From: Candidatus Thioglobus perditus
Lineage (GTDB): Bacteria > Pseudomonadota > Gammaproteobacteria > PS1 > Pseudothioglobaceae
Assembly: GCA_002909145.1 (NCBI GenBank)
Contig: PNQY01000043.1
Location: forward strand, 1-64,000
Direction of reading: 5' to 3'
DNA length: 64,000 nucleotides
In this document: positions 41,014-57,313 of the stretch, piece by piece
Numbering within the stretch: the stretch's first letter is position 1
How the letters are laid out: every line of letters begins with the position of its first letter
Notes under the pieces: generated by a model
Told to the model about the DNA's origin: nothing
Seen by the model: only the letters and a program-made list of their open reading frames with translations
Database searches by the model: none
Position numbers and translations under genes: made by a program

Positions 41014-41364
41014 ATGAATAGTAAATTATTAATCATACTGGCATTATTATTACAGCTAGCTTTCTCAACAACTGCGATGTCAAGATCAGCAGCAAATAGA
41101 AATCAATTAGACTCAATATCACTATTGGGAGGGTTAAACGGCACTGCGTTGCAATGCGGTTATGTAGAGCAAATGCAACGTATTAAGCAAGCTTTAATAT
41201 TAAACCTACCCAAGCAAAGAGCGCTCGGTGACTGGTTTGAAAGCTCTACTAATGTAGAGTTCTTGGACTTTATAACTAGTAATAAAAATTGTGGGTCGTT
41301 GGCTATATTTACACTACAAGTTGATGATGCAATTAGAGAGTTGGAAGATGTATTTAAAAAATAA
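41014..41364 (+). CDS. Small secreted protein of unknown function in the nos operon
   Basis: Not recognised. The 116 residues begin with a Sec signal peptide (LLIILALLLQLAFSTTAMS). The mature part is about 95 residues, mostly helical, with two cysteines (LQCGYVEQ and NKNCGSL) that could form a disulfide. It starts 26 bp after nosY and overlaps the SCO-fusion gene by 17 bp, so it belongs to the same transcript. A periplasmic partner of the next protein is a fair guess. Confidence 0.65.
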   Translation: MNSKLLIILALLLQLAFSTTAMSRSAANRNQLDSISLLGGLNGTALQCGYVEQMQRIKQALILNLPKQRALGDWFESSTNVEFLDFITSNKNCGSLAIFTLQVDDAIRELEDVFKK

Positions 41365-42790
41365 AATAATACTATCGACAGTATTATTTTTTCTACACTT
41401 AGAGCTTTGGGCGGATGAGCCAAAAGTAGTTGTTAGTATTAAGCCAATACATTCAATTGTAACTGGTTTGATGAAAGGTGTAGCGACCCCTGATCTATTA
41501 ATTGATGGAGAGCAAACTCCGTATGATTTCCAATTAAATCAACAACATCTTGATAGTTTAAATAATGCATCTTTGGTTATCTGGATTGGCCCTGAGCTTG
41601 AATCTGTATTAACAACAAAGCTTAAGCAGTTACAGAAATCAGTCAAGATTGTTGAATTGCTTTCAAGTGCTAATTTAAAAATACTACCATCTAGAAACAA
41701 CCCAAATCTGCGTGATCCATTCTTTTGGATGGATGATAGAAATGTCATAATATTGCTAGATGAGTTAACACGTTTAATGGTTAATGTTGATCCTTCTAGA
41801 GCGCATATATATACTGAGAATAGACGCAAAATGCTAATACCTTTGCGTCGAATTGACAAAGAGTACGAGTATGGGTATCGAGGTTTAAAGGCCGGACTAG
41901 GTGTACTATATTATGACACTTTGCAGTATTTTGAACAAGCATACGCTTTAAAGACTCTAGATCAAGTAACTGGAACGGTAGGAGACGATATAAATGCTGC
42001 TAATTTGTTAAAAGTGAGGAAAAGAATAGTAGACAAAGAGGCAGCTTGTTTGTTTATAGATAAAAGTATGCCAAATGAAAACCTTGCTTTGCTTACAAAC
42101 TCTCAAGATATAAATATTGGTAAGCTGGACGTTTTGGCTCAAAATTTTAAACCTGGTGAGCAACTTTACTTGCAAATGATGCAATACAATACTGATATCA
42201 TAAAGCAATGCTTAAATGCTGATATGGATGATGCTGCAAAGGCTAGACTGTCTGCTATTGATGAGCAGTCAGTAGGTTTTGATAGTATTGGTCAGGGAAG
42301 GTTTATCCTAAAAGATCATTACAATAATGTGTTTACCGAGCAAGATATGCGTGGTAAGTATGCATTAGTGTTCTTTGGGTATACGTATTGCCCCGATGTA
42401 TGTCCAACTAATATGTTTATATTGTCACAAGCATTTGAAAAAATGGGAGATAGTGTCAATAATTTAGTTCCTTACTTTATATCGGTCGACCCTGAGCGTG
42501 ACGATGCCAAAATATTGCGTGATTATGTGGCTTTTTTTGATCATAGAATTGTTGGTTTGACTGGTTCAAAATTGATGATTAAACGTGTTGCCGATCAGTT
42601 TAAGGCTAAATATGAAAAGGGCGATGTTGATCCAAAAGATAAGGACTTATATATTATGGACCATACCGCCAGTTTGTATCTAATGGCTCCAGATGGTAGT
42701 TTTGTTACAAAATTTGCACATGGTATCGCCCCAGAAGTTTTAGCAAGTGAACTGAGTAGTATTATGGGCGGCACTATTAATGGTAGATAA
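41348..42790 (+). CDS. ZnuA-like / SCO1-SenC fusion protein
   Basis: The 480-residue secreted protein starts at 41348 with a signal peptide ending near LWA-DE. Residues about 24-300 resemble ZnuA-type metal-binding proteins (VVVSIKPIHSIVTGLMKG, LVIWIGPELESVL, YYDTLQYFEQAYAL). The histidines that bind Zn in ZnuA are replaced at aligned positions by Pro, Phe and Tyr. Residues about 310-480 are a complete SCO domain: copper site C348PDVC352 and His439 in DHTASLYL, with FFGYTYCPD. SCO proteins load CuA; NosZ has a CuA centre, so maturation of NosZ is the likely job. An upstream in-frame ATG at 41291 is not used because it skips the signal. Confidence 0.85.
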   Translation: MYLKNKIILSTVLFFLHLELWADEPKVVVSIKPIHSIVTGLMKGVATPDLLIDGEQTPYDFQLNQQHLDSLNNASLVIWIGPELESVLTTKLKQLQKSVKIVELLSSANLKILPSRNNPNLRDPFFWMDDRNVIILLDELTRLMVNVDPSRAHIYTENRRKMLIPLRRIDKEYEYGYRGLKAGLGVLYYDTLQYFEQAYALKTLDQVTGTVGDDINAANLLKVRKRIVDKEAACLFIDKSMPNENLALLTNSQDINIGKLDVLAQNFKPGEQLYLQMMQYNTDIIKQCLNADMDDAAKARLSAIDEQSVGFDSIGQGRFILKDHYNNVFTEQDMRGKYALVFFGYTYCPDVCPTNMFILSQAFEKMGDSVNNLVPYFISVDPERDDAKILRDYVAFFDHRIVGLTGSKLMIKRVADQFKAKYEKGDVDPKDKDLYIMDHTASLYLMAPDGSFVTKFAHGIAPEVLASELSSIMGGTINGR

Positions 42791-45215: not shown

Positions 45216-45776
45216 TTATTCAAACTCCTGTTCAACAAAATCAAGGTCGATTTGAATATTAGAATTATCGAGCAGCTCTAAGCATTTTGGTACAGCTAAA
45301 AATACCGCACCAAGACACACTGCAATTGCAGCTGGTTTGCCTGGAAGATTAATAATTAAACTATTACCTCGCGTGCCTGCTGTTTGACGCGACAAAATTG
45401 CTGTAGGTACGGTGCGTAAACTTACATTGCGCATTTGTTCAGCAAAACCATCAAATATCCTTTCACATACATTGTGTGTTGCCTCAGGTGTAACGTCACG
45501 AGTAGTAGGTCCAGTTCCACCGGTGCTTAGAATTAAGTTGCAATCCCTATTATCAGCAAAATCAATCATAGTTTTTTCGATTAGATCTTGCTCATCTTCG
45601 ATAATAATACTATCTACTTCATAAGGAGACAATAGGGCATTCTTAATCCAATCTTGCATTGCTGGACCGCCAATGTCTTCATATTCTCCACGAGCTGCAC
45701 GGTCAGAGATGGTGATAAAACCAACTTTAATTTTTGTTCTCCCAAGGGGTTTTTGTGTATTACTTATGTTGTTCAT
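45216..45776 (-). CDS. mog: Molybdopterin adenylyltransferase Mog
   Basis: Mog adenylates molybdopterin before Mo insertion, needed for the NarG cofactor. From the ATG at 45776 it has 186 residues; an in-frame TTG at 45803 would overlap the upstream gene. The motifs match Mog (ISDRAARGEYED, STGGTGPTTRDVTPEAT, FAEQMRNVSL, TAILSRQTAGTRG, NLPGKPAAI). It lies just downstream of, and on the same strand as, the NIT-CRP/FNR regulator, so both are probably one transcript. Confidence 0.9.
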   Translation of the reverse strand: MNNISNTQKPLGRTKIKVGFITISDRAARGEYEDIGGPAMQDWIKNALLSPYEVDSIIIEDEQDLIEKTMIDFADNRDCNLILSTGGTGPTTRDVTPEATHNVCERIFDGFAEQMRNVSLRTVPTAILSRQTAGTRGNSLIINLPGKPAAIAVCLGAVFLAVPKCLELLDNSNIQIDLDFVEQEFE

Positions 45777-45795: not shown

Positions 45796-47346
45796 TTATA
45801 CAACCTTGACAGAACATGAGGATGAGGATTTATTTATACATTTATTAAGATTATGTTGAGTGCATAAACTAATAGTATTTGTAGAGCAGTATTCACAAAG
45901 GTTGTATTTATCTGGAACCTCTACGCCATCTCTTTTAACTACATATCCTTTTTTAGATAAGGAGCTTATGGCGCGTGATAGTACTTCGCGACTCATGCCT
46001 AAATAAGACGCAATAATGGATTTGTTGTAAGGGAATTTAATTGTATTTGATTGCCATTTTTTATCGTTTTGCAATTTAAGCAAGAACTGTCCAACCCTCT
46101 GTTCGGTATTTTTGGTTTTAATGCATTCAGCTTCTTGACTAACTGTGTTAGATTTCGTAGCAACATAGTTAAGCATATTTGTAGCAAAATCACCGTTAGA
46201 TTTAATTAACCCTTTTATTTTTGTAATTTGTATGCTAAATATTAGTGAGTCAGTAACAGTTTTAGCATTATTGTTAAAGTTTTTCTGCGTAAGCGCATTT
46301 GCATCTAAAACAATCTCTCCATTGCTAAGCATTTGCAGGATTACTTCTTTGCGTTTTGTGTTGAGTTTAAACACTTTAACCCAGCCAACCAGAATAATAT
46401 GCATATGAGAGACCAGAGAGTCTTCAATTACAATAGACTTGTTTTTTGGAACTTGATATATATTACCTGCTTGAATTAATGAGTTTATTTCATTAGCGTC
46501 AATATCTTTAAAAATGTCCAGCCCATATACCAATCGTTCATAAGTATTGCTAGGCTCAATATCTGTTATGGGCGGAAGACTCTTATTTGTTAGCTCCGCA
46601 TATAAGCCTTGTTCAATTTTATGCAGGGTGTCAATCTTTAGGGTTATAAGTGCAAACCAGTCCCTTGCATTCATTTGTTTTAATTTGGATGAATCTTTAT
46701 TGTTTTTCAATTCTGAGTGAATTTCACTTAGCGTGTTGGAGTATGGCATTTTGTTGCTAGACTCAACAAGACGTTGTTGTTGTTTGGTTGCTAACGATAG
46801 AAAAGAATTCTTATAATAATCTTGTTCACTAATTAAAATCCCGATATGCTCTATATAGTCCTTATCAGTAAAATCATTCTCAATAAATCCACGTGTAAGT
46901 ACAGATCTCTCTAAACCAACCTTTTCTTTCCATTGTAAAAAAAAGCAATGGGCATTAATAGCGCTTGGGTGCGCGTCATCAATCAACAATATGAGTTTTG
47001 TCATTAGTTGAATAATTGGTGAAATTAAACTATGAGTATAGAAATTAAAAGCATCTTGTACTGATAAATCCAATCTGAGTATATGTTGTCGTTGTTGTCC
47101 TAGCTCCAGCAGGTTTGTTTTAATAGAAGTGTGAAGATCTTGTTGATCATGATCCAATTCCCCGAAGCTCTTCCAGTTGTCAATATTATCTAAGAGTTCA
47201 GTGGTTACATCATCTGTTTTAAAGAAATATTCTAATATTTCCTCACTAAATGCCTTGCTATTTTCTCTTATATACAAGGTTGCAAAACCTCTCTCACGTT
47301 GCAACATGTGAAATGATTTACTAAGAATTGGAATATATTGATTCAT
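45796..47346 (-). CDS. NIT-domain CRP/FNR-family regulator with Cys-rich tail
   Basis: The 516-residue protein combines three parts. Residues 1 to about 255 look like a NIT (nitrate/nitrite sensing) domain: QRERGFATLYI near the start and KVGLERSVLTRGF near residue 145, the two Arg-bearing motifs of NIT domains. Residues about 285-400 form a cyclic-nucleotide-binding-like beta-roll, and about 410-475 a CRP-type helix-turn-helix with recognition helix S452REVLSR458. The C-terminus has C484-x2-C487-x7-C495-x7-C503-x7-C511. FNR's N-terminal cysteines are absent. Divergent from narK1, it is a strong candidate for the nitrate-responsive activator of the nar genes. I know NIT domains fused to ANTAR domains (NasR) but not this fusion. 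Confidence 0.8.
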   Translation of the reverse strand: MNQYIPILSKSFHMLQRERGFATLYIRENSKAFSEEILEYFFKTDDVTTELLDNIDNWKSFGELDHDQQDLHTSIKTNLLELGQQRQHILRLDLSVQDAFNFYTHSLISPIIQLMTKLILLIDDAHPSAINAHCFFLQWKEKVGLERSVLTRGFIENDFTDKDYIEHIGILISEQDYYKNSFLSLATKQQQRLVESSNKMPYSNTLSEIHSELKNNKDSSKLKQMNARDWFALITLKIDTLHKIEQGLYAELTNKSLPPITDIEPSNTYERLVYGLDIFKDIDANEINSLIQAGNIYQVPKNKSIVIEDSLVSHMHIILVGWVKVFKLNTKRKEVILQMLSNGEIVLDANALTQKNFNNNAKTVTDSLIFSIQITKIKGLIKSNGDFATNMLNYVATKSNTVSQEAECIKTKNTEQRVGQFLLKLQNDKKWQSNTIKFPYNKSIIASYLGMSREVLSRAISSLSKKGYVVKRDGVEVPDKYNLCEYCSTNTISLCTQHNLNKCINKSSSSCSVKVV

Positions 47347-47400
47347 TAATTAAATTTATTCAGAATTATAGTTGTTAATTATAGTATTTAATAAAGTGTA

Positions 47401-47416
47401 TGTGACATATATCACA
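47401..47416. promoter_or_regulatory. CRP-type palindrome between the regulator gene and narK1
   Basis: TGTGA-CATATA-TCACA is a perfect CRP-pattern site. It lies 55 bp from the regulator start and about 30 bp upstream of the TTGAC box of narK1. Two TATAAT hexamers for the regulator gene (minus strand, 47365-47370 and 47378-47383) lie nearby. It could bind CRP or the adjacent regulator. Confidence 0.6.
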
Positions 47417-47439: not shown

Positions 47440-47453
47440 TTGACTGAGGTCAA
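47440..47453 (+). promoter_or_regulatory. FNR-type box of the narK1 promoter
   Basis: TTGACTGAGGTCAA is a perfect palindrome of the FNR-family pattern with C/G at the inner half-site position. Its centre is 31 bp from the centre of a -10-like CAAAAT at 47475-47480 (class II geometry). The surrounding bases match the narG promoter (TTGATTT upstream, GTCAAGGTTT downstream). Confidence 0.8.
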
Positions 47454-47527: not shown

Positions 47528-48934
47528 ATGGGCTTATCAATGATAAGTAGTAGAAAAGCGCAGGCTAATTCTGTACTAGCGTCCAATACTATTGCATTTA
47601 CTGCATGTTTTGCTGTGTGGGTGATGTTTTCAATTATTGGTATTCCAATTAAGGAGTTATTAGAACTTTCAGAGACTCAATTTGGTTTATTGGTAGCAAC
47701 ACCAATTCTTACCGGTTCAGTATTCAGACTGCCAGTAGGTATGTTGACTGATAGGATCGGCGGACGTGTTGTTTTCTTTATCTTAATGCTGACAATGATT
47801 ATTCCATTGTGGTTTATTGGTAATGCAACCGAATATTGGCAGTTTTTAGTGCTAGGTTTATTTGTAGGTATTGCTGGTGCATCATTCTCAGTAGGCGTTG
47901 CTTATACTGCTAAATGGTTTGATAAAGAAAATCAAGGCCTTGCTATGGGTATTTTTGGTGCTGGTAACGCTGGCGCAGCGCTAACTAAATTTATCGCACC
48001 TTCACTTGTGGTTGTATACGGCTGGCAGACGGTACCAAAAGTATATGCAGTAGCAATGATTGTAGTGATTACTTTCTATTGGATGTTTACTTTTGAGGAT
48101 GAAGAACACCATACTGCAAAAGAAGTTAGTGTGTTTGAGCAGTTGAAAACATTGAATGATCCAAAATTATGGAAATATATGCAGTATTACTCACTAGTAT
48201 TTGGTGGTTTTGTGGCGCTTTCATTATGGATGACAAAATATTATATTAACGAATATGGATTTGATCTTACAACTGCAGCACTACTTGCAGCAATTTTTGT
48301 TTTGCCTTCAGGCGTGATTCGTGCACTTGGTGGTTGGTTCTCAGATAAATATGGTGCATACAAGGTAACCTGGTGGGTTATGTGGGTTTCATTGATATGT
48401 TTGTTCTTTATGTCATACCCACAAACAGGGCTGTTAATTCAAACAATTGATGGCCCAAAGAGTTTTGATCTTAGTTTAAACGTATGGGTATTTACTGCAT
48501 TCTTATTTGTATTAGGTATTGCTTGGGGCTTTGGCAAAGCTTCAGTGTTTAAGTTCTTATCAGATGAATACCCAGATAATATTGGTGTGGTTTCAGGTGT
48601 TGTTGGCCTTGCTGGTGGTATGGGTGGATTTTTATTGCCAATTATGTTCGGTGTGCTGATAGACGCCTTACATATTAACTCAGTGATCTTTATGTTGTTA
48701 TTTGGTGCAACAGGGGTTTCGGTGATTTGGATGCACTTTACTTTTGGTAAAGATAGAGAAGAACAAAGAGCTAAAAAAGCTCGCAAATCTGCCTTGGATG
48801 AATTTTCTTCTCGGTATGACGATCCTGAGAAAGTTGCTTCTGCGCAGGCAATGTTGGAAAACATGGATTTACTCGAAGAGTTTACTAAGAGGTACACCTC
48901 TTATAAAGAAAGCATTAGAAATAATTCAAAATAA
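47528..48934 (+). CDS. narK: Nitrate/nitrite transporter NarK1-type
   Basis: The 468-residue MFS protein of the NNP family has 12 transmembrane helices. The first NNP signature lies in FVGIAGASFSVGVAYTAKWFDKENQGLAMGIFGAGNAG and the second in GVVSGVVGLAGGMGGFLLP. In tandem pairs NarK1 is usually a nitrate/proton symporter and NarK2 a nitrate/nitrite antiporter. The ribosome binding site is AAAGGAG. A cytoplasmic C-terminal tail of about 60 residues is charged. It is first in the narK1-narK2 unit. Confidence 0.93.
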   Translation: MGLSMISSRKAQANSVLASNTIAFTACFAVWVMFSIIGIPIKELLELSETQFGLLVATPILTGSVFRLPVGMLTDRIGGRVVFFILMLTMIIPLWFIGNATEYWQFLVLGLFVGIAGASFSVGVAYTAKWFDKENQGLAMGIFGAGNAGAALTKFIAPSLVVVYGWQTVPKVYAVAMIVVITFYWMFTFEDEEHHTAKEVSVFEQLKTLNDPKLWKYMQYYSLVFGGFVALSLWMTKYYINEYGFDLTTAALLAAIFVLPSGVIRALGGWFSDKYGAYKVTWWVMWVSLICLFFMSYPQTGLLIQTIDGPKSFDLSLNVWVFTAFLFVLGIAWGFGKASVFKFLSDEYPDNIGVVSGVVGLAGGMGGFLLPIMFGVLIDALHINSVIFMLLFGATGVSVIWMHFTFGKDREEQRAKKARKSALDEFSSRYDDPEKVASAQAMLENMDLLEEFTKRYTSYKESIRNNSK

Positions 48935-48967: not shown

Positions 48968-50581
48968 ATGGCTCAAGATATAAAAAGCTGGAATCCGGAT
49001 GATAATTCCGAGTGGGAAAGCAAAGGCAAAGCAATTGCTAACCGTAACTTGTGGATTTCAATCCCAAGCTTACTAGCTGGATTTGCCACATGGCTAATGT
49101 GGGGTATTATTACCGTGCAAATGATGAATACTGGCTATGGTGGCTTTGAAAAATCACAGTTGTTCACTCTAGCTGCAATTGCCGGATTATCAGGTGCAAC
49201 ATTACGTATTCCATCAACGTTTTTTATTCGTCTAGCAGGCGGTAGAAATACTTTATTCTTGACAACTTCATTGTTAATGCTTCCAGCTATAGGGCTTGGT
49301 ATAGCCTTATCATCTCCGGATACGCCATTCTGGCATTTCCAGATCTTGGCGTTGTTATCTGGCTTTGGTGGTGGTAACTTTGCCTCTTCGATGTCAAATA
49401 TTTCTTACTTCTTCCCGAAGAAGATCCAAGGTTATTCGTTAGGCATGAACGCAGGTTTGGGTAACTTTGGTGTTACTACGATGCAAATTGTTATTCCTTT
49501 AGTGATGACAATGGCGGTCATGGGTAACCCTACTGAGCTTCAGATTGCTTCAGGCACGCTAGTTGGTAAAATCCCAGCAGGCACTGATACCTACCTTCAA
49601 AATGCGGGCTATGTTTGGTTAATTATCTTAATTCCATTGTCACTAGCAACATGGTTTGGTATGAATAATATTACTGCAGATCATGTTTCACCAAATATTG
49701 GTTCAACCATTGGTGCATTTATTAAGATTATATTAATGCTGGTGCTTGGCTTATCAACTGCAGCATTAGGGTTGTATTTAATGTTGCCTGAGGCGGTAAG
49801 TGGCTCTGGGTTAATGATTAGTAAATGGGTTGCGCTTCCTATAGTTTTAGCTTTGACAGTAATTTTACTTAAGATAGCTCCACTGGGTAGTGACTATAAA
49901 GAAGGTATCAACCGTCAATATAAGATCTTTGGCAATAAGCATACATGGGTGATGACAATCATCTATACCATGACATTTGGTTCATTTATTGGTTACGCAG
50001 CAGCACTAGCATTATCAATTAAAGTGATCTTTGGCTTTCAACATATTATGGTTGATGGCATTATGACTCATAATACGATTAATCCAAATGCCCCTTCAGC
50101 GTTAACATACGCCTGGATGGGTGCTTTCGTTGGTGCACTTATTCGTCCAATTGGTGGCATGATTGCTGACAAGATGGGTGGTGCTAAAGTAACGCAGATC
50201 ATCTCAGCAGTAATGGTTGTCTCTACATTAGGTGTAGCTTACTTTATGAAACAAGCTTACGCAAGTGCAACGCCAGAAGAGTTCTTCTACCAATTCCTAA
50301 TTTTGTTTGTAATTTTATTTGCAATGACAGGTATTGGTAATGGCTCCACCTTTAGAACAACATCTCAGATTTTTAATAAAGAACAGGCTGGTCCAGTTCT
50401 TGGTTGGACATCTGCAGTAGCAGCTTATGGTGCATTTATTGTTCCAAAAGTATTTGGTGAGCAGATTAAGGCTACAACACCTGAGAATGCACTATATGGT
50501 TTTGCGGTGTTTTATGCGGTATGTATGGTTATTAACTGGTGGTTCTACTTACGTAAGAACGCTGAGTTCCATAATCCATAA
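48968..50581 (+). CDS. narK: Nitrate/nitrite antiporter NarK2-type
   Basis: The 537-residue MFS/NNP transporter, longer than narK1, has extra loops between helices 5 and 6. Signatures include GFGGGNFASSMSNISYFFPKKIQGYSLGMNAGLGNFGV and GNGSTFRTTSQIF. It has an optimal ribosome binding site (AAGGAGG). It follows narK1 by 33 bp, and a double hairpin separates it from narG. Nitrate uptake/nitrite export for NarG is the expected role. Confidence 0.92.
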   Translation: MAQDIKSWNPDDNSEWESKGKAIANRNLWISIPSLLAGFATWLMWGIITVQMMNTGYGGFEKSQLFTLAAIAGLSGATLRIPSTFFIRLAGGRNTLFLTTSLLMLPAIGLGIALSSPDTPFWHFQILALLSGFGGGNFASSMSNISYFFPKKIQGYSLGMNAGLGNFGVTTMQIVIPLVMTMAVMGNPTELQIASGTLVGKIPAGTDTYLQNAGYVWLIILIPLSLATWFGMNNITADHVSPNIGSTIGAFIKIILMLVLGLSTAALGLYLMLPEAVSGSGLMISKWVALPIVLALTVILLKIAPLGSDYKEGINRQYKIFGNKHTWVMTIIYTMTFGSFIGYAAALALSIKVIFGFQHIMVDGIMTHNTINPNAPSALTYAWMGAFVGALIRPIGGMIADKMGGAKVTQIISAVMVVSTLGVAYFMKQAYASATPEEFFYQFLILFVILFAMTGIGNGSTFRTTSQIFNKEQAGPVLGWTSAVAAYGAFIVPKVFGEQIKATTPENALYGFAVFYAVCMVINWWFYLRKNAEFHNP

Positions 50582-50675: not shown

Positions 50676-50689
50676 TTGACCCACGTCAA
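50676..50689 (+). promoter_or_regulatory. FNR-type box of the narG promoter
   Basis: TTGACCCACGTCAA has the same TTGAC-N4-GTCAA palindrome as narK1. The centre is 31 bp from a CAGAAT -10-like hexamer (50711-50716). The flanks repeat the narK1 promoter (TTGATTTA before, GTCAAGGTTT after, then GGG-CA-AAT). Confidence 0.8.
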
Positions 50690-50772: not shown

Positions 50773-53700
50773 ATGAGTCATTTTTTAGATAGACTTAAGT
50801 ACTTTAATCGTATCAAGTCAACTTACTCGAAAGGACATGGTATTGTTACTGAAGAGGATCGCGGTTGGGAAGACACTTACCGTAATCGCTGGCGTCATGA
50901 TAAAGTAGTTAGATCTACTCACGGTGTAAACTGTACAGGTGGTTGTTCATGGCAGATTTTTGTTAAGAATGGTCTAGTATCTTATGAGATGCAGCAGACT
51001 GATTACCCACGTACTCGTGAAGACTTGCCTAATCATGAACCTCGTGGTTGTCAACGTGGAGCATCATTTTCATGGTACCTATATTCTCCACATCGTATTA
51101 AATACCCACTAATTCGTGGTCGTCTATTAGACCTATATCGTTCTGAGCGTAGCTCAGGTAAAGACCCGGTTGAATCTTGGGAGGCTATTCAGTCTGATAA
51201 AGAAAAGCGTGATTCATATGTAGGTGTACGTGGTTTGGGTGGTTTTGCACGTTCAACTTGGGATGAAGTAGTTGAGATTACTGCTGCTGCAAATGTTTAC
51301 ACTATTAAAAAGTACGGTCCTGACCGTATTTATGGTTTCTCTCCAATTCCAGCAATGAGTATGATTTCATATGCTGCTGGTTCAAGATATTTATCAATGA
51401 TTGGCGCAGGTGTTGGTTCATTCTATGATTGGTATTGTGATCTTCCTCCATCGTCTCCTCAAGTTTGGGGTGAACAAACAGACGTGCCTGAGTCAGCTGA
51501 CTGGTACAACTCTAAATACATTATTGTTTGTGGTGCAAACTTACCAATGACACGTACTCCTGATGCCCACTTTGCGGTTGAGTCACGTTACAATGGTACA
51601 AAAGTTGTATCAATGGCGCCAGACTATGCAGAATATGTGAAATTTGCAGATTTATGGATGCCAGTTAAACAAGGTACTGATGCTGCAGCATTTATGGCAA
51701 TGGGCCATGTGGCACTTAAAGAGTTCCACGTTGACAAACAAGACCCTTACTTTGCTGAGTATGCAAGAAGCTTTACTGACTTCCCGATGCAGGTTATCCT
51801 TGAAGAAGTTAATGGTAAGATGGTTACTGGTAGATTCCTTCGTGCTTCTGACTTTGATAATAACATGGGTGAAGACAATAACCCTGAGTGGAAGACAGTT
51901 GTATTTGATTCTAAATCAGGCTCATTTGTTGCTCCTAATGGTTCTATTGGATTCCGTTGGGGTGAAGAAGGTAAATGGAATATCTTAGAGCAAGCTGCAG
52001 GTAATGAAATTGAAGCAGAGTTAAGTTGTATTGATTCTAAAGATGCAGTGGTAGATGTAACTTTCCCTCACTTTAACCCTGAGGAAGGTGATTCAATAGT
52101 ACGCAAAATTCCAGTGCGCAAGCTTAAGCTTGCTAATGGTGATGAGGTAATGGTAACTTCAGTATGTGATTTGCAAATTTCACAATACGGTATTGATCGT
52201 GGTCTAGGTGATAACCTAGCAACATCTTATGATGATGATACAGTTCCTTACACGCCAGCATGGGCAGCCAAGATTACTGGCGTTCCGGCGGCTGATTTAG
52301 AAAAAACAGGTCGTGAATTTGCTGACAACGCCTCTAAGACTAGAGGTAAGTCAATGGTAATCCTAGGTGCTGCCATCACTCACTGGTATCACACTGATAT
52401 GCACTATCGTGGCATTATGAACCTACTTCACATCTGTGGTTGTGTTGGTCAATCAGGCGGTGGTTGGGCTCACTACGTTGGACAAGAAAAACTACGTCCT
52501 CAAGCTGGTTGGGCACCAATTGCATTTGGTCTTGATTGGCAGCGTCCACCACGTCATATGGCATCAACAACTTACTGGTATTTCCATACAGATCAGTGGC
52601 GCTATGAGAGAGTTGAAGCTGATAACTTGTTAGCATCAACTGCTAAAGCTAAATATCGTGGTAATCAATTGGCTGACTATAACGTTGCAGCGCAACGTAT
52701 GGGCTGGACTCCATCGATTCCTCAATTTGATCAAAACCCTCTTGAGCTTGCTAAAGAAGCGGAAGACGCGGGTGCAACTGACGAAGCTGCGGTTTCTAAA
52801 TATGTTGCTGAGAAGTTACAAAAAGGTGATCTTAACTTTGCTTATGAAGACATTGACGCAGAAGAAAATTTCCCTCGCAATTTATTTGTATGGCGCTCTA
52901 ACCTAATTGGTAGTTCGTCTAAAGGACACGAGTATTTCTTAAAACACTTACTAGGTGCACAGAACGGTGTATTAACTGAAGGTACAGAAGGTAAAGCTTG
53001 TAAAGAGGTTAAGTGGCATGAAAAAGCTCCAACTGGAAAGTTAGACTTGATGGTTGACATTAACTTCCGTCTAAACTCTACTGGTGCTTATTCAGATATT
53101 GTATTACCGACTGCAACTTGGTATGAGAAAGCTGACCTTAATACTACAGATATGCATCCATTTGTACATCCATTAGGTAAGGCAGTTGATCCAGCATGGG
53201 AAGCACGTTCTGACTGGCAAATCTTTAAAACTATTGCTAAGAAGTTCTCAGAGCTTTCTGAGAAGCACCTTGGTACTGTAAAAGATGTGGTTTCTTTACC
53301 AATGCAACATGATACTGCAGCAGCTATGGCGCAACCATTTGGTGAAGTTAAAGACTGGAAGAAGGGTGAGTGTGACATAATTCCTGGTAAGACAGCTCCA
53401 TTCTTCAAGGTTGTAGAAAGAGACTATCCAAATACTTATGCTAAGTATATTGCCTTAGGTCCATTAATGAAGAAGCTAGGTAATAATATTAAAGGCATTG
53501 ACTGGAATACTGATCATGAAGTTGATGAGTTAGCAGAATGCAATGGCACTATTAAGGAAGAAGGTATCTCTAAAGGTATGCCATCATTAGCTGAAGATAT
53601 ACATGTATGTGACGCGGTAATGCGTATGGCACCTGAAACCAATGGTGAAGTGGCACATAAATCATGGTCAGGTCAATCGAAGAAAACCGGTATTAGTCAC

Positions 53701-54513
53701 TCGCACTTGTACGAGGGTCGTCGAGAAGAAAAGATTACTTATAGGGATATTGTAGCTCAACCACGTAAGATTATTACTGCACCTACTTGGTCTGGTATTG
53801 AGTCTGAAGAGGTGAGTTACAACGCTTGTTACACTAACTTGCACGAGAAAATTCCTTTGAGAACAGTAACTGGTCGTGCGCAATTCTATATGGATCATGA
53901 ATGGATGTTAGATTTTGGTGAAGGTTTTGCTGCTTATAAGCCAGCACTTGACACTAAATCTACTATTACTATTCCTGAAGATGTGAAGAAGAAGCCACAC
54001 TTGAAACTTAACTGGATTACACCACACTCTAAATGGGGTATCCACTCAACTTACCAAGATAATTTGAGAATGTTAACTTTATTCCGTGGCGGTCCATACT
54101 TCTGGATTTCTGAAGAAGATGCACAATCAATTGGTCTTGTGGATAACGATTGGGTTGAGGCGGTTAATGCTAATGGTGCAACTATGGCTAGAGTAGTTGT
54201 TTCACAAAGAGTTCCGAATGGTATGGCGCTTATGTATCACGCTCAAGAAAAAAATGTTAACGTACCAGGATCTCCATCTACAGGTAAACGTGGCGGTATT
54301 TTGAATGCTGTAACTAGAACTGTACCTAAACCAACTCATATGATTGGTGGTTACGGTCAGTTTGCTTATTCATTTAACTACTACGGCCCTATTGGATCTA
54401 ATCGTGATGAATATGTTGTGGTTCACAAGGTCGATCAAAATGTGGATTGGCTGGAAAGAGAGTTAACCCCTGAGAGAGAGAAGAAGAAGAATCCTCCAGG
54501 AATTAACAACTAA
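50773..54513 (+). CDS. narG: Respiratory nitrate reductase alpha subunit
   Basis: NarG is the Mo-bisMGD catalytic subunit that reduces nitrate to nitrite on the cytoplasmic side. The 1246 residues start without a full Tat signal, as expected for membrane-attached cytoplasmic NarG. FS0 cluster ligands are His50, Cys54 and Cys58 (HGVNCTGGC), plus the Cys of EPRGCQRGAS. The Mo-ligand Asp region WGEQTDVPESADWYNSKYI is conserved. The MGD-binding segments are intact through GGYGQFAYSFNYYGP. It heads narGHJI behind an FNR-type promoter. Confidence 0.98.
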   Translation: MSHFLDRLKYFNRIKSTYSKGHGIVTEEDRGWEDTYRNRWRHDKVVRSTHGVNCTGGCSWQIFVKNGLVSYEMQQTDYPRTREDLPNHEPRGCQRGASFSWYLYSPHRIKYPLIRGRLLDLYRSERSSGKDPVESWEAIQSDKEKRDSYVGVRGLGGFARSTWDEVVEITAAANVYTIKKYGPDRIYGFSPIPAMSMISYAAGSRYLSMIGAGVGSFYDWYCDLPPSSPQVWGEQTDVPESADWYNSKYIIVCGANLPMTRTPDAHFAVESRYNGTKVVSMAPDYAEYVKFADLWMPVKQGTDAAAFMAMGHVALKEFHVDKQDPYFAEYARSFTDFPMQVILEEVNGKMVTGRFLRASDFDNNMGEDNNPEWKTVVFDSKSGSFVAPNGSIGFRWGEEGKWNILEQAAGNEIEAELSCIDSKDAVVDVTFPHFNPEEGDSIVRKIPVRKLKLANGDEVMVTSVCDLQISQYGIDRGLGDNLATSYDDDTVPYTPAWAAKITGVPAADLEKTGREFADNASKTRGKSMVILGAAITHWYHTDMHYRGIMNLLHICGCVGQSGGGWAHYVGQEKLRPQAGWAPIAFGLDWQRPPRHMASTTYWYFHTDQWRYERVEADNLLASTAKAKYRGNQLADYNVAAQRMGWTPSIPQFDQNPLELAKEAEDAGATDEAAVSKYVAEKLQKGDLNFAYEDIDAEENFPRNLFVWRSNLIGSSSKGHEYFLKHLLGAQNGVLTEGTEGKACKEVKWHEKAPTGKLDLMVDINFRLNSTGAYSDIVLPTATWYEKADLNTTDMHPFVHPLGKAVDPAWEARSDWQIFKTIAKKFSELSEKHLGTVKDVVSLPMQHDTAAAMAQPFGEVKDWKKGECDIIPGKTAPFFKVVERDYPNTYAKYIALGPLMKKLGNNIKGIDWNTDHEVDELAECNGTIKEEGISKGMPSLAEDIHVCDAVMRMAPETNGEVAHKSWSGQSKKTGISHSHLYEGRREEKITYRDIVAQPRKIITAPTWSGIESEEVSYNACYTNLHEKIPLRTVTGRAQFYMDHEWMLDFGEGFAAYKPALDTKSTITIPEDVKKKPHLKLNWITPHSKWGIHSTYQDNLRMLTLFRGGPYFWISEEDAQSIGLVDNDWVEAVNANGATMARVVVSQRVPNGMALMYHAQEKNVNVPGSPSTGKRGGILNAVTRTVPKPTHMIGGYGQFAYSFNYYGPIGSNRDEYVVVHKVDQNVDWLERELTPEREKKKNPPGINN

Positions 54514-54534: not shown

Positions 54535-56085
54535 ATGAAAATAAGAGCACAAATTTCAATGGTATTGAACCTAGACAAATGTATTGGTTGTCATACTTGT
54601 TCAGTTACTTGTAAAAATATTTGGACCAACCGTAAAGGTGTAGAGTACGCTTGGTTTAATAATGTTGAATCTAAGCCTGGTATTGGCTTCCCTAAAAACT
54701 GGGAAGATCAAGGCAAATGGAAAGGCGGCTGGAAAGTTTCTAACGACAAGTTAGAGCTTAAAGCTGGTGGCAGAGTGAGTAAATTGGCAAATCTTTTTGC
54801 TAATCCTGACATGCCTGAGATTGACGATTACTATGAACCGTTTGATTATAAATATCATAAATTGCAATCATCACCTCTATCTGAGGCAACCCCGACTGCA
54901 CGTCCAGTATCTCAAATTACTGGTAAGGATATGGAGAAGATTGAATGGGGCCCTAACTGGGAAGATGATCTTGCTGGTGAGTTTGAAAAAAGATCTAAAG
55001 ATATTAACTTTAAAAATGTTAATAAAGAGATGTACAAGGATTTTGAAAATACATTCCATATGTATCTTCCACGTCTATGTAATCACTGTCTTAATCCTGC
55101 TTGTGCAGCTTCTTGCCCATCAGGTGCGATCTACAAGCGTGAAGAAGATGGTATTGTTCTAGTTGACCAAGATAAATGTCGTGGCTGGAGAATGTGTGTT
55201 ACAGGCTGTCCTTACAAGAAGGTTTACTATAACTGGGAATCAGGTAAATCAGAGAAATGTATTGGTTGTTACCCAAGAATTGAATCTGGAATGCCAATGG
55301 CATGTGCAGAATCTTGTGTAGGCCGTATTCGTTATGTTGGTGTAATGTTATATGATGCAGATAAGATCTCAGATACTGCTTCAACAGCAAATGAGCAAGA
55401 CCTATATCAGGACCACTTAGATACTTTCTTAGATCCTAACGATCCTGCAGTTATTACTCAAGCACTTGAAGATGGTGTGCCACAGTCATGGATTGATGCA
55501 GCACAAAACTCACCAGTGTATAAAATGGTTAAAGATTGGAAGATTGCATTCCCAATCCACCCAGAGTACAGAACTCTACCAATGATGTGGTATGTTCCAC
55601 CATTGTCTCCGGTTCAAAGCCAGATTGACAAAGGTACGGTTGAAACATCAAATGGTGTAATTCCAACTGCTGATTCAGTACGCTTCCCTGCTAAGTATTT
55701 AGCTAATATGTTTACAGCTGGTGATGAAAAGCCAATTGTCAACTCTATTTCTAAATTGTTAGCAATGCGTGCACATCAGCGCTTTAAATCTGTAGAGGGT
55801 ACAGATGGTGCAGATGTATTAGCTGATGCTGGTTTAAGTGTTGAGCAAGCTGAAGAAATGTATCGTTACCTTGGTATTGCTAATTATGAAGATCGTTTTG
55901 TTATTCCAACTTCACATGAGGAGATGCGTCATGAAGATCCATACGGCTTCCAAGGTCAAAATGGCTTCTCTGGTGGCAACTCAAGTTCTCAAGGTCCAGA
56001 TGGTGGTACAGGGTTTACACTATTCCCTGCTCCGCGCAAGAAGGCTGTGATTCCAGTTGAAATGATGCCGAAAAAGAAAGGTTAG
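54535..56085 (+). CDS. narH: Respiratory nitrate reductase beta subunit
   Basis: NarH carries electrons from NarI haem to NarG through three 4Fe-4S clusters and one 3Fe-4S cluster. The 516 residues show the four Cys groups: CIGCHTCSVTCKNIW near residue 16, CNHCLNPACAASCP near 182, CRGWRMCVTGCPY (Trp in place of Cys, the 3Fe-4S site), and CIGCYPRIESGMPMACAESC. The ribosome binding site is good (AGGAGA). Confidence 0.97.
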   Translation: MKIRAQISMVLNLDKCIGCHTCSVTCKNIWTNRKGVEYAWFNNVESKPGIGFPKNWEDQGKWKGGWKVSNDKLELKAGGRVSKLANLFANPDMPEIDDYYEPFDYKYHKLQSSPLSEATPTARPVSQITGKDMEKIEWGPNWEDDLAGEFEKRSKDINFKNVNKEMYKDFENTFHMYLPRLCNHCLNPACAASCPSGAIYKREEDGIVLVDQDKCRGWRMCVTGCPYKKVYYNWESGKSEKCIGCYPRIESGMPMACAESCVGRIRYVGVMLYDADKISDTASTANEQDLYQDHLDTFLDPNDPAVITQALEDGVPQSWIDAAQNSPVYKMVKDWKIAFPIHPEYRTLPMMWYVPPLSPVQSQIDKGTVETSNGVIPTADSVRFPAKYLANMFTAGDEKPIVNSISKLLAMRAHQRFKSVEGTDGADVLADAGLSVEQAEEMYRYLGIANYEDRFVIPTSHEEMRHEDPYGFQGQNGFSGGNSSSQGPDGGTGFTLFPAPRKKAVIPVEMMPKKKG

Positions 56086-56093
56086 GAGGATAT

Positions 56094-56609
56094 ATGCAAG
56101 TATTTAATGTTTTATCAAGACTACTGGACTACCCAGATGATGAGTTAATGGATAACCTAAGCTCAATAATTGACTATGTGAAAACATCAGATTCAATTGA
56201 AGAAGATGAAAAGACTGCAATTATGGAGTTTGTTTCTTGGATGGGGGTTCATACATCAACAGGCATACAGCAAAACTATGTTGAAACCTTTGACATGATT
56301 CCAGAGCATGACCTACACCTAACCCACCATATCTTTGGTGATGACAAGGGTCGTGGTCCTGCTTTGATTGATTTGTCTGAGCATTTTAAGAGTGAAGGCT
56401 TAGAAGCTAAAGATGGAGAAATTCCTGACTTCTTGCCTTTGATCTTAGAGTATGTAGCAACTTTAGATGATATGGAGTCAAGAATATTCTTGGGTGACGC
56501 TAAGAAGATTATTAAGATCATAGCGGATAATTTAGATGAGGCTAAGAGTCCTTATTCTAAATTAGTTAGAATTGTTGAACAGCGTAGCTATTTAGCGACC
56601 GCAGCATAA
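56094..56609 (+). CDS. narJ: Nitrate reductase assembly chaperone NarJ
   Basis: NarJ is the dedicated chaperone that holds NarGH until Mo cofactor insertion. The 171 residues are shorter than enteric NarJ (about 230) but have the core YVETFDMIPEHDLHLTHHIFGDDKGRGPALIDL and LPDFLPLILEYVA-like helices. It lies 8 bp after narH and 11 bp before narI. Confidence 0.93.
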   Translation: MQVFNVLSRLLDYPDDELMDNLSSIIDYVKTSDSIEEDEKTAIMEFVSWMGVHTSTGIQQNYVETFDMIPEHDLHLTHHIFGDDKGRGPALIDLSEHFKSEGLEAKDGEIPDFLPLILEYVATLDDMESRIFLGDAKKIIKIIADNLDEAKSPYSKLVRIVEQRSYLATAA

Positions 56610-56620
56610 GGAGATATAGT

Positions 56621-57313
56621 ATGAGTTTAGAAAACTTTTTATTTGGAGTTTATCCATATATAGCAGGCGTAGTATTTATTTTAGGTAGCTGGATTCGTTT
56701 TGATCGAGAGCAGTATACTTGGAAGGCTGATTCATCTCAGTTACTGGGTAACAAAGGCATGGTATTAGCCAGTAATTTATTCCATATTGGTGTTTTGGGT
56801 ATCTTCTTTGGTCATGCAGCAGGTATGTTATTACCGCATAGCTGGTGGCAGTTAGTTGCAACTGATGTTCAACATCAGTACATTGCAATTTACGCAGGTA
56901 TGGTTTTTGGCGGTTTGGCAGCAATTGGTGCGGCACTTCTTTTCTATCGTCGTATGACAAATGATAGGGTTAAGTCTGTAAGTCGTTTTAGAGATAATTT
57001 TGTGATCTTTTGGTTGCTAGCAACAGCACTATTAGGTTTGAACACAATTTCAGGATCTATGCATCATGCAGCAGATGGAGATGTAACAATTATGCTAACT
57101 TTAGCTGAATATGTGAAATCAATTGCAACATTGAGTGTTGATCCATCATTACTTGCAGGTGTGCCACATACTTATAAATTGCATATGCTATTTGGTATGA
57201 CGCTATTTTTAGTGTTTCCATTTACACGTTTAGTACACGTTTGGTCAGTGCCACTTACATATTTGATGCGTCCTTATCAAATTGTTAGAAGAAAGCGTAT
57301 GAGGACTAATTGA
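56621..57313 (+). CDS. narI: Respiratory nitrate reductase gamma subunit
   Basis: NarI is the diheme cytochrome b that oxidises quinol at the membrane. The 230 residues have five transmembrane helices. Haem-ligand His pairs are in NLFHIGVLGIFFGHAAGM and in YKLHMLFGMTLFLVFPFTRLVHVWSVP. Its TGA overlaps the TTG start of the next small gene. Confidence 0.96.
   Translation: MSLENFLFGVYPYIAGVVFILGSWIRFDREQYTWKADSSQLLGNKGMVLASNLFHIGVLGIFFGHAAGMLLPHSWWQLVATDVQHQYIAIYAGMVFGGLAAIGAALLFYRRMTNDRVKSVSRFRDNFVIFWLLATALLGLNTISGSMHHAADGDVTIMLTLAEYVKSIATLSVDPSLLAGVPHTYKLHMLFGMTLFLVFPFTRLVHVWSVPLTYLMRPYQIVRRKRMRTN

Follow-up and report, generated by a model that had tools for sequence, protein, structure and literature searches.

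The nar locus of the window

The window, the whole stretch of 64,000 nucleotides that was analysed, belongs to a genome of the Thioglobaceae/SUP05 clade (G000) and carries narGHJI with two NarK-type transporter genes. Next to them, on the minus strand, lies a gene that begins with ATG and encodes a NIT-CRP/FNR fusion regulator of 516 aa (45796..47346; assigned from its ORF, Pfam matches and orthologues). The gene downstream of it is mog (molybdopterin adenylyltransferase; 45216..45776, minus strand), with a likely ATG start at 45776. On the other side, and divergent from it, is a narK1-type nitrate/nitrite transporter gene (47528..48934), which is followed by a narK2/narU-type nitrate/nitrite transporter gene (48968..50581), narG (50773..54513), narH (54535..56085), narJ (56094..56609) and narI (56621..57313), all on the plus strand. 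A moa/moe/mob cluster, assigned from the sequences by eye, occupies 59-63 kb of the window. The neighbours are thus those on which the first-pass annotation had relied when it linked the gene to nitrate respiration, namely a divergent narK1 and a co-oriented mog.

Domain structure of the fusion protein

According to Pfam, the fusion protein has three domains: (i) a NIT domain at aa 13-252 (46591..47310, minus strand; E 3.3e-29), matching profile positions 4-238 of 239; (ii) a cNMP-binding-fold beta-roll at aa 299-384 (cNMP_binding; 46195..46452, minus strand; E 5.3e-10); and (iii) a Crp-type winged helix-turn-helix (HTH) at aa 416-485 (HTH_Crp_2; 45892..46101, minus strand; E 3.1e-13), with the recognition helix GMSREVLSR. 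The NIT match scores 103.4 bits, the curated cut-off for that family (PF08376) being 24.9 bits, and the other two matches likewise exceed their own cut-offs. The architecture that had been read from the letters, a NIT-like N-terminus joined to a cyclic-nucleotide-binding-like domain and a CRP-type HTH, is therefore borne out, and the same three domains were found in all five relatives scanned with Pfam. The combination of a cNMP-fold domain with a Crp-type winged HTH places the protein in the CRP/FNR superfamily, although it passes the cut-off of no NCBIfam model. No match to an ANTAR domain of the NasR type was obtained with Pfam, the Crp HTH standing in its place. A chance or assembly fusion was ruled out, because the gene is intact and conserved in several species, including on named public contigs.

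When compared with solved structures, the whole protein matches CRP/FNR/DNR proteins through its CRP half. The only solved-structure match of the NIT half is NasR (4AKK), which is weak for the single sequence (E 0.016) and strong for a NIT profile built from seven relatives (E 3.5e-17). Structure prediction had been proposed as a check. The Foldseek matches listed were CRP/FNR proteins only, NasR not being among them, and the AF2 model is poor over the CRP half and too weak there for pocket or cluster geometry.

The beta-roll lacks the Arg-Ser of the cAMP cassette, as do all members of the fusion group, in which no such pair was found in alignments at the place corresponding to the phosphate-binding cassette of CRP. 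Since the cassette is missing, the cNMP-fold domain is probably not a cyclic-nucleotide receptor, and a ligand of the cAMP type was rejected on the same ground. Nor were the N-terminal Cys cluster ligands of E. coli-type FNR found; the N-terminus of the fusion is occupied by the NIT domain, and its conserved Cys residues are C-terminal. These residues, in a feature absent from the first-pass description, form a four-Cys tail, C484-x2-C487-x7-C495-x7-C503 (45838..45897, minus strand; from alignments), which is a candidate Fe-S or Zn site.

The NIT sensor and its putative ligand

Members that are full-length in both bacterial classes where the fusion was found share the invariant residues H13, Q16, E18, R19, G20, Q138-W-K140, G144, E146 and R147. 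Among these are the putative nitrate-pocket motifs, Q16-x-x-R19 and G144-x-E146-R147, which in alignments to 4AKK correspond to the QxxR and GxxR/ER pocket motifs of NasR; the NIT motifs quoted at the outset indeed align with NasR NIT helices (LQ.ERG and G.ER). The pocket motifs stay invariant while overall identity drops to 25-29%. In NasR, QxxR and GxxR are the nitrate-site motifs (PMC8199190), E175/R176 belong to the nitrate site, and the protein responds to either nitrate or nitrite (PMC7496416). Binding is not universal among NIT domains, as that of Pseudomonas aeruginosa PA4520 does not bind nitrate (PMC6381276). From the conserved pocket we infer that the fusion NIT domain would bind nitrate.

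The fusion is the only NIT protein found in its 1.59-Mb genome. No NarX/NarQ-type sensor (PilJ/PF13675) was found there either, the E. coli control being positive, and NarXL-type control was accordingly ruled out. The earlier proposal is thus supported as regards the lack of a NarX/NarQ-type sensor. To present NarXL-free nitrate control as a new principle was an overstatement, because in Paracoccus NarXL is already replaced by NarR, a CRP/FNR protein that responds to nitrate/nitrite (PMC8139620, PMC3541799). The further point that known NIT fusions have other outputs agrees with the loci examined, where none of 36 NIT proteins outside the fusion group has a CRP part.

Distribution and synteny

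An intact, full-length fusion gene is present in 7 of 83 family genomes (G000, G013, G022, G088, G090, G091 and G095), the copies being 41-45% identical to the window protein. Named relatives come from Bathymodiolus thiotrophic symbionts, Candidatus Thioglobus pontius and Candidatus Thiodubiliella. Three more family copies are incomplete: that of G089 is split, that of G087 is cut by a contig end, and G001 has fragments only. Every intact copy is divergent from narK1, and intact copies occur in 7 of the 21 family genomes that have narK1 vs none of the 62 that lack it. The fusion gene is not essential for nar, because most narK1-bearing relatives do without it. In G089 (C41; L036:6064-7517) two overlapping ORFs make up the gene, the break being at the NIT end, and the locus lacks the operator candidate described below; this may represent true decay or a frame error. 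The remnant in G001 (C1:751495-752153; L014/L159) has mog on one side and a transposase-like ORF on the other, and narK1 has been lost from this genome; here regulator and target have decayed together.

Outside the family, no full-length fusion was found among 369 gammaproteobacterial genomes, none was found in viral contigs, and plasmids gave no match covering most of the query; a wide spread of the fusion was therefore not seen in these sets. Sampling of the phylum, and then of the class of G807 and of G755, yielded three further members in another proteobacterial class (G807, G755 and G1089), most likely the Alphaproteobacteria. G807 and G755 have the fusion gene in the orientation of moaA/moeA (plus mog in G755) and divergent from narK1, narK2 and narG; the G1089 copy is cut by a contig end. 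The proposed link to nar is therefore supported, since all intact family copies keep the arrangement, as do members from a second class, and a candidate operator is conserved with it. A single origin of the fusion agrees with the NIT tree, but at weak support (44), and is neither confirmed nor contradicted by the CRP tree.

Operator candidates and the recognition helix

The intergenic region between the fusion gene and narK1 contains an operator candidate, TGTGACATATATCACA (47401..47416, no strand assigned), a TGTGA-N6-TCACA dyad that is kept in orthologous intergenic regions. A sigma-70 promoter predicted for the fusion gene (GTCACA-17-TATAAT; 47378..47406, minus strand) has its -35 element (47406-47401) inside this dyad. 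Autoregulation of the fusion gene is likely because of this overlap. Perfect TTGAC-N4-GTCAA dyads lie upstream of narK1 (TTGACTGAGGTCAA; 47440..47453) and of narG (TTGACCCACGTCAA; 50676..50689), neither being assigned a strand, and are likely to be sites of an FNR/DNR-type regulator with a PExxSR helix. TTGA dyads are somewhat over-represented in the window (23 observed vs 14 expected at one mismatch), where narG is preceded by a TTGA site and lacks a TGTGA one. Both kinds of site, TGTGA and TTGA-type, are present 39 bp apart in G000 and G013.

The family form of the dyad, [TC]GTGAYATAWRTCACA, stands between the fusion gene and narK1 in seven of seven intact family genomes and also in G087. 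The TGTGA dyad is found in 7/7 genomes with the fusion vs 1/12 narK1 genomes without it (Fisher p 1.6e-4), a count that overstates the independent evidence because the narK1 tree offers no more than 1-3 independent contrasts. In resampled sequence, one intergenic region would contain such a dyad with a probability of at most 4e-4. The family motif is matched exactly just once in the 1.59-Mb genome, at 47401-47416, and the regulon may be limited to one intergenic region. The one dyad-bearing narK1 genome that lacks the fusion is G015 (L102). Its TGTGACCTATATCACA, at position -202 relative to narK1, has no fusion gene in the vicinity, the gap to mog is long (283 bp), and the site looks like an orphan operator. 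G015 joins G000 in the narK1 tree (support 81), and its locus fits a recent loss of the fusion gene.

Helix and site change together, SRExxSR with TGTGA and PExxSR with TTGA. The Thioglobaceae fusions have the helix SRE[VT][FL]SR and TGTGA dyads, the fusions of G807 and G755 have the helix [KR]PETFSR and TTGA-N6-TCAA dyads in the same intergenic place, and the NIT-less paralogues have PExxSR; narK1 genomes without the fusion mostly carry a TTGA site.

The cysteine tail and NIT-less paralogues

The four Cys residues of the tail are invariant in all fusions, and the NIT-less CRPs of the family, as well as part of those in the other class, carry the same tail. The tail-bearing CRPs all group together in a single clade (SH-aLRT 99). 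A C-terminal Cys extension is a trait of Bacillus-type Fnr, and in B. subtilis and B. cereus Fnr it holds a [4Fe-4S] cluster (PMC3520743). This analogy makes an Fe-S cluster the leading guess for the tail of the fusion protein, with Zn as the suggested alternative.

The NIT-less, tail-bearing CRP/FNR subfamily is widespread in Thioglobaceae (loci L005-L013, L027-L031, L046-L064), and two of its members are encoded in the genome of the window (G000:C16:69261-69983, L029; G000:C120:24711-25403, L194). One of these adjoins a napG-like gene, and other paralogues adjoin narK1 or, in the other class, ccoN; the subfamily probably consists of anaerobic/denitrification regulators. The same genome also encodes a separate FNR-like regulator (G000:C16:82535; L193:937-1692) with N-terminal Cys residues (C3, C14 and C17) and the helix KVHISR.

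Proposed mechanism and alternatives

Taken together, domain content, synteny and comparative genomics point, with a probability of about 0.74, to the fusion protein being a cytoplasmic transcription factor of the one-component type, responsive to nitrate/nitrite and dedicated to nar. Its N-terminal NIT domain would bind nitrate or nitrite through two arginines, and ligand binding would alter the state of the CRP/FNR dimer. The TGTGA-N6-TCACA dyad in the gene-narK1 intergenic region would be the target of the SRExxSR helices, a prediction with strong comparative support, and from this dyad the protein would control narK1-narK2 as well as its own gene together with mog. An FNR/DNR-type factor would act alongside, at the TTGA-N6-TCAA sites before narK1 and narG. 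With less certainty, the four-Cys tail probably holds an Fe-S cluster (or Zn), which would add oxygen or redox gating.

How much weight the tail should be given separates several readings. At somewhat less than even odds, the protein is a coincidence detector, with the NIT domain as nitrate sensor and an oxygen-labile Fe-S cluster seated on the tail, so that nar is switched only when low oxygen and nitrate occur together. Such a role would suit the invariance of the four Cys residues across all NIT-CRPs and NIT-less paralogues, which form a single 99%-supported clade, the position of the paralogues beside nap, narK1 or ccoN genes, and the precedent of Bacillus Fnr, where the C-terminal Cys keep a [4Fe-4S] cluster (PMC3520743). 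The spacing is unlike that of Bacillus (CxxCx4C plus Asp), however, Zn or a disulfide is equally allowed by the tail sequence, and the FNR-like gene with N-terminal Cys (C16:82535) is a separate one in the same genome. The opposite extreme, that NIT serves for dimerisation or otherwise senses nothing, and that the protein answers to redox alone through its tail, is quite improbable: while tail-bearing paralogues without NIT exist and nitrate is not bound by the PA4520 domain (PMC6381276), neither pocket motif varies despite an overall identity of 25-29%, and the fusion is always at nar. We would advance only tentatively, as a rather doubtful extension, the idea that one polypeptide joins nitrate (NIT) and oxygen/redox (C-terminal Fe-S) inputs on a CRP/FNR output and so takes over the roles of both NarXL and FNR at the nar operon of SUP05-clade bacteria and mussel symbionts, the switch from TTGA to TGTGA in the family avoiding cross-talk with the NIT-less paralogues.

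The remaining alternatives concern ligand and target. It is unlikely that the physiological ligand is not nitrate but nitrite, or another oxyanion or NO-related species, the protein then being a product or stress sensor for NarK-type nitrite export. NasR does respond to nitrate or nitrite (PMC7496416), and the nearest gene is that of a NarK-type transporter and not narG, but the pocket motifs do not discriminate between ligands, and in two genomes of the other class the narK1-narK2-narG set comes directly after the fusion gene. More improbable still is an autorepressor that acts chiefly on its own promoter and has a minor effect on nar. The dyad does overlap the -35 hexamer at 47406-47401, its motif occurs once in the genome, and narG has a TTGA site without a TGTGA site in the window; against this, the dyad also lies 95-130 bp upstream of narK1, in the normal activator range, the link of the fusion gene to narK1 is strict, and an intact fusion gene was never found away from nar.

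Relation to known systems

The preferred reading, a dedicated nitrate/nitrite-responsive factor, keeps the NIT-CRP protein within the CRP/FNR kind, and no new category is needed. By function the closest system is NarR, by sensor it is NasR, and the Cys tail recalls Bacillus Fnr. NarR, compared here by its description, is likewise a CRP/FNR-type one-component factor tied to nar where NarXL is missing, the nar link of the fusion resting on synteny and operator; it is reported as FNR-like without [4Fe-4S], and no NIT is described for it, whereas the fusion has a 250-aa NIT domain and a four-Cys tail. Klebsiella NasR (NIT-ANTAR) shares the one-component design, the N-terminal NIT domain and the pocket motifs, its 4AKK being the only solved NIT structure found, but its output is an RNA-binding antiterminator for nitrate assimilation, in contrast to the DNA-binding CRP/FNR output for respiration of the fusion. 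Bacillus Fnr is a CRP/FNR protein whose C-terminal Cys extension holds [4Fe-4S] and which controls anaerobic genes (PMC3520743); it differs in having no NIT domain and in its three Cys plus Asp at shorter spacing. NIT chemoreceptors and NIT histidine kinases have the NIT input in common and differ in their outputs, which are chemotaxis or kinase modules. DNR/FNR/FixK regulators have a CRP fold, ExxSR-type recognition helices and TTGA-type sites. The fold is that of the fusion protein, and the helices and sites are as in the NIT-less paralogues described here; these regulators have no NIT, and the Thioglobaceae fusions have SRExxSR with TGTGA sites. No description of a NIT-CRP/FNR architecture was found in the literature searched, which did not include subscription articles about NarR, the structure of NasR and the first account of NIT. 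What appears to be novel is the sensor, a NIT domain joined to a CRP/FNR output with a Cys tail as a further element.

If the preferred reading is true, the protein would be a case of a NIT domain in control of a CRP/FNR output that binds DNA. With a single dedicated protein and a defined operator candidate, nitrate sensing without NarXL can be tested directly in a heterologous host, and the protein could serve as a compact nitrate biosensor part. The family also offers a natural experiment, in which a regulator would have changed helix and operator to insulate itself from its paralogues. In low-oxygen seas, SUP05/Thioglobus bacteria and the symbionts of bathymodioline mussels tie sulfur oxidation to the reduction of nitrate.

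Elsewhere in the window, the stretch that separates narI from the moa cluster encodes a DsrC-like protein (PF04358; 57581-57928), which places a sulfur-oxidation partner next to the genes of nitrate respiration. A single ORF at 41291-42790 combines a ZnuA-type metal-binding domain with a SCO1/SenC domain, and looks like an unusual fusion.
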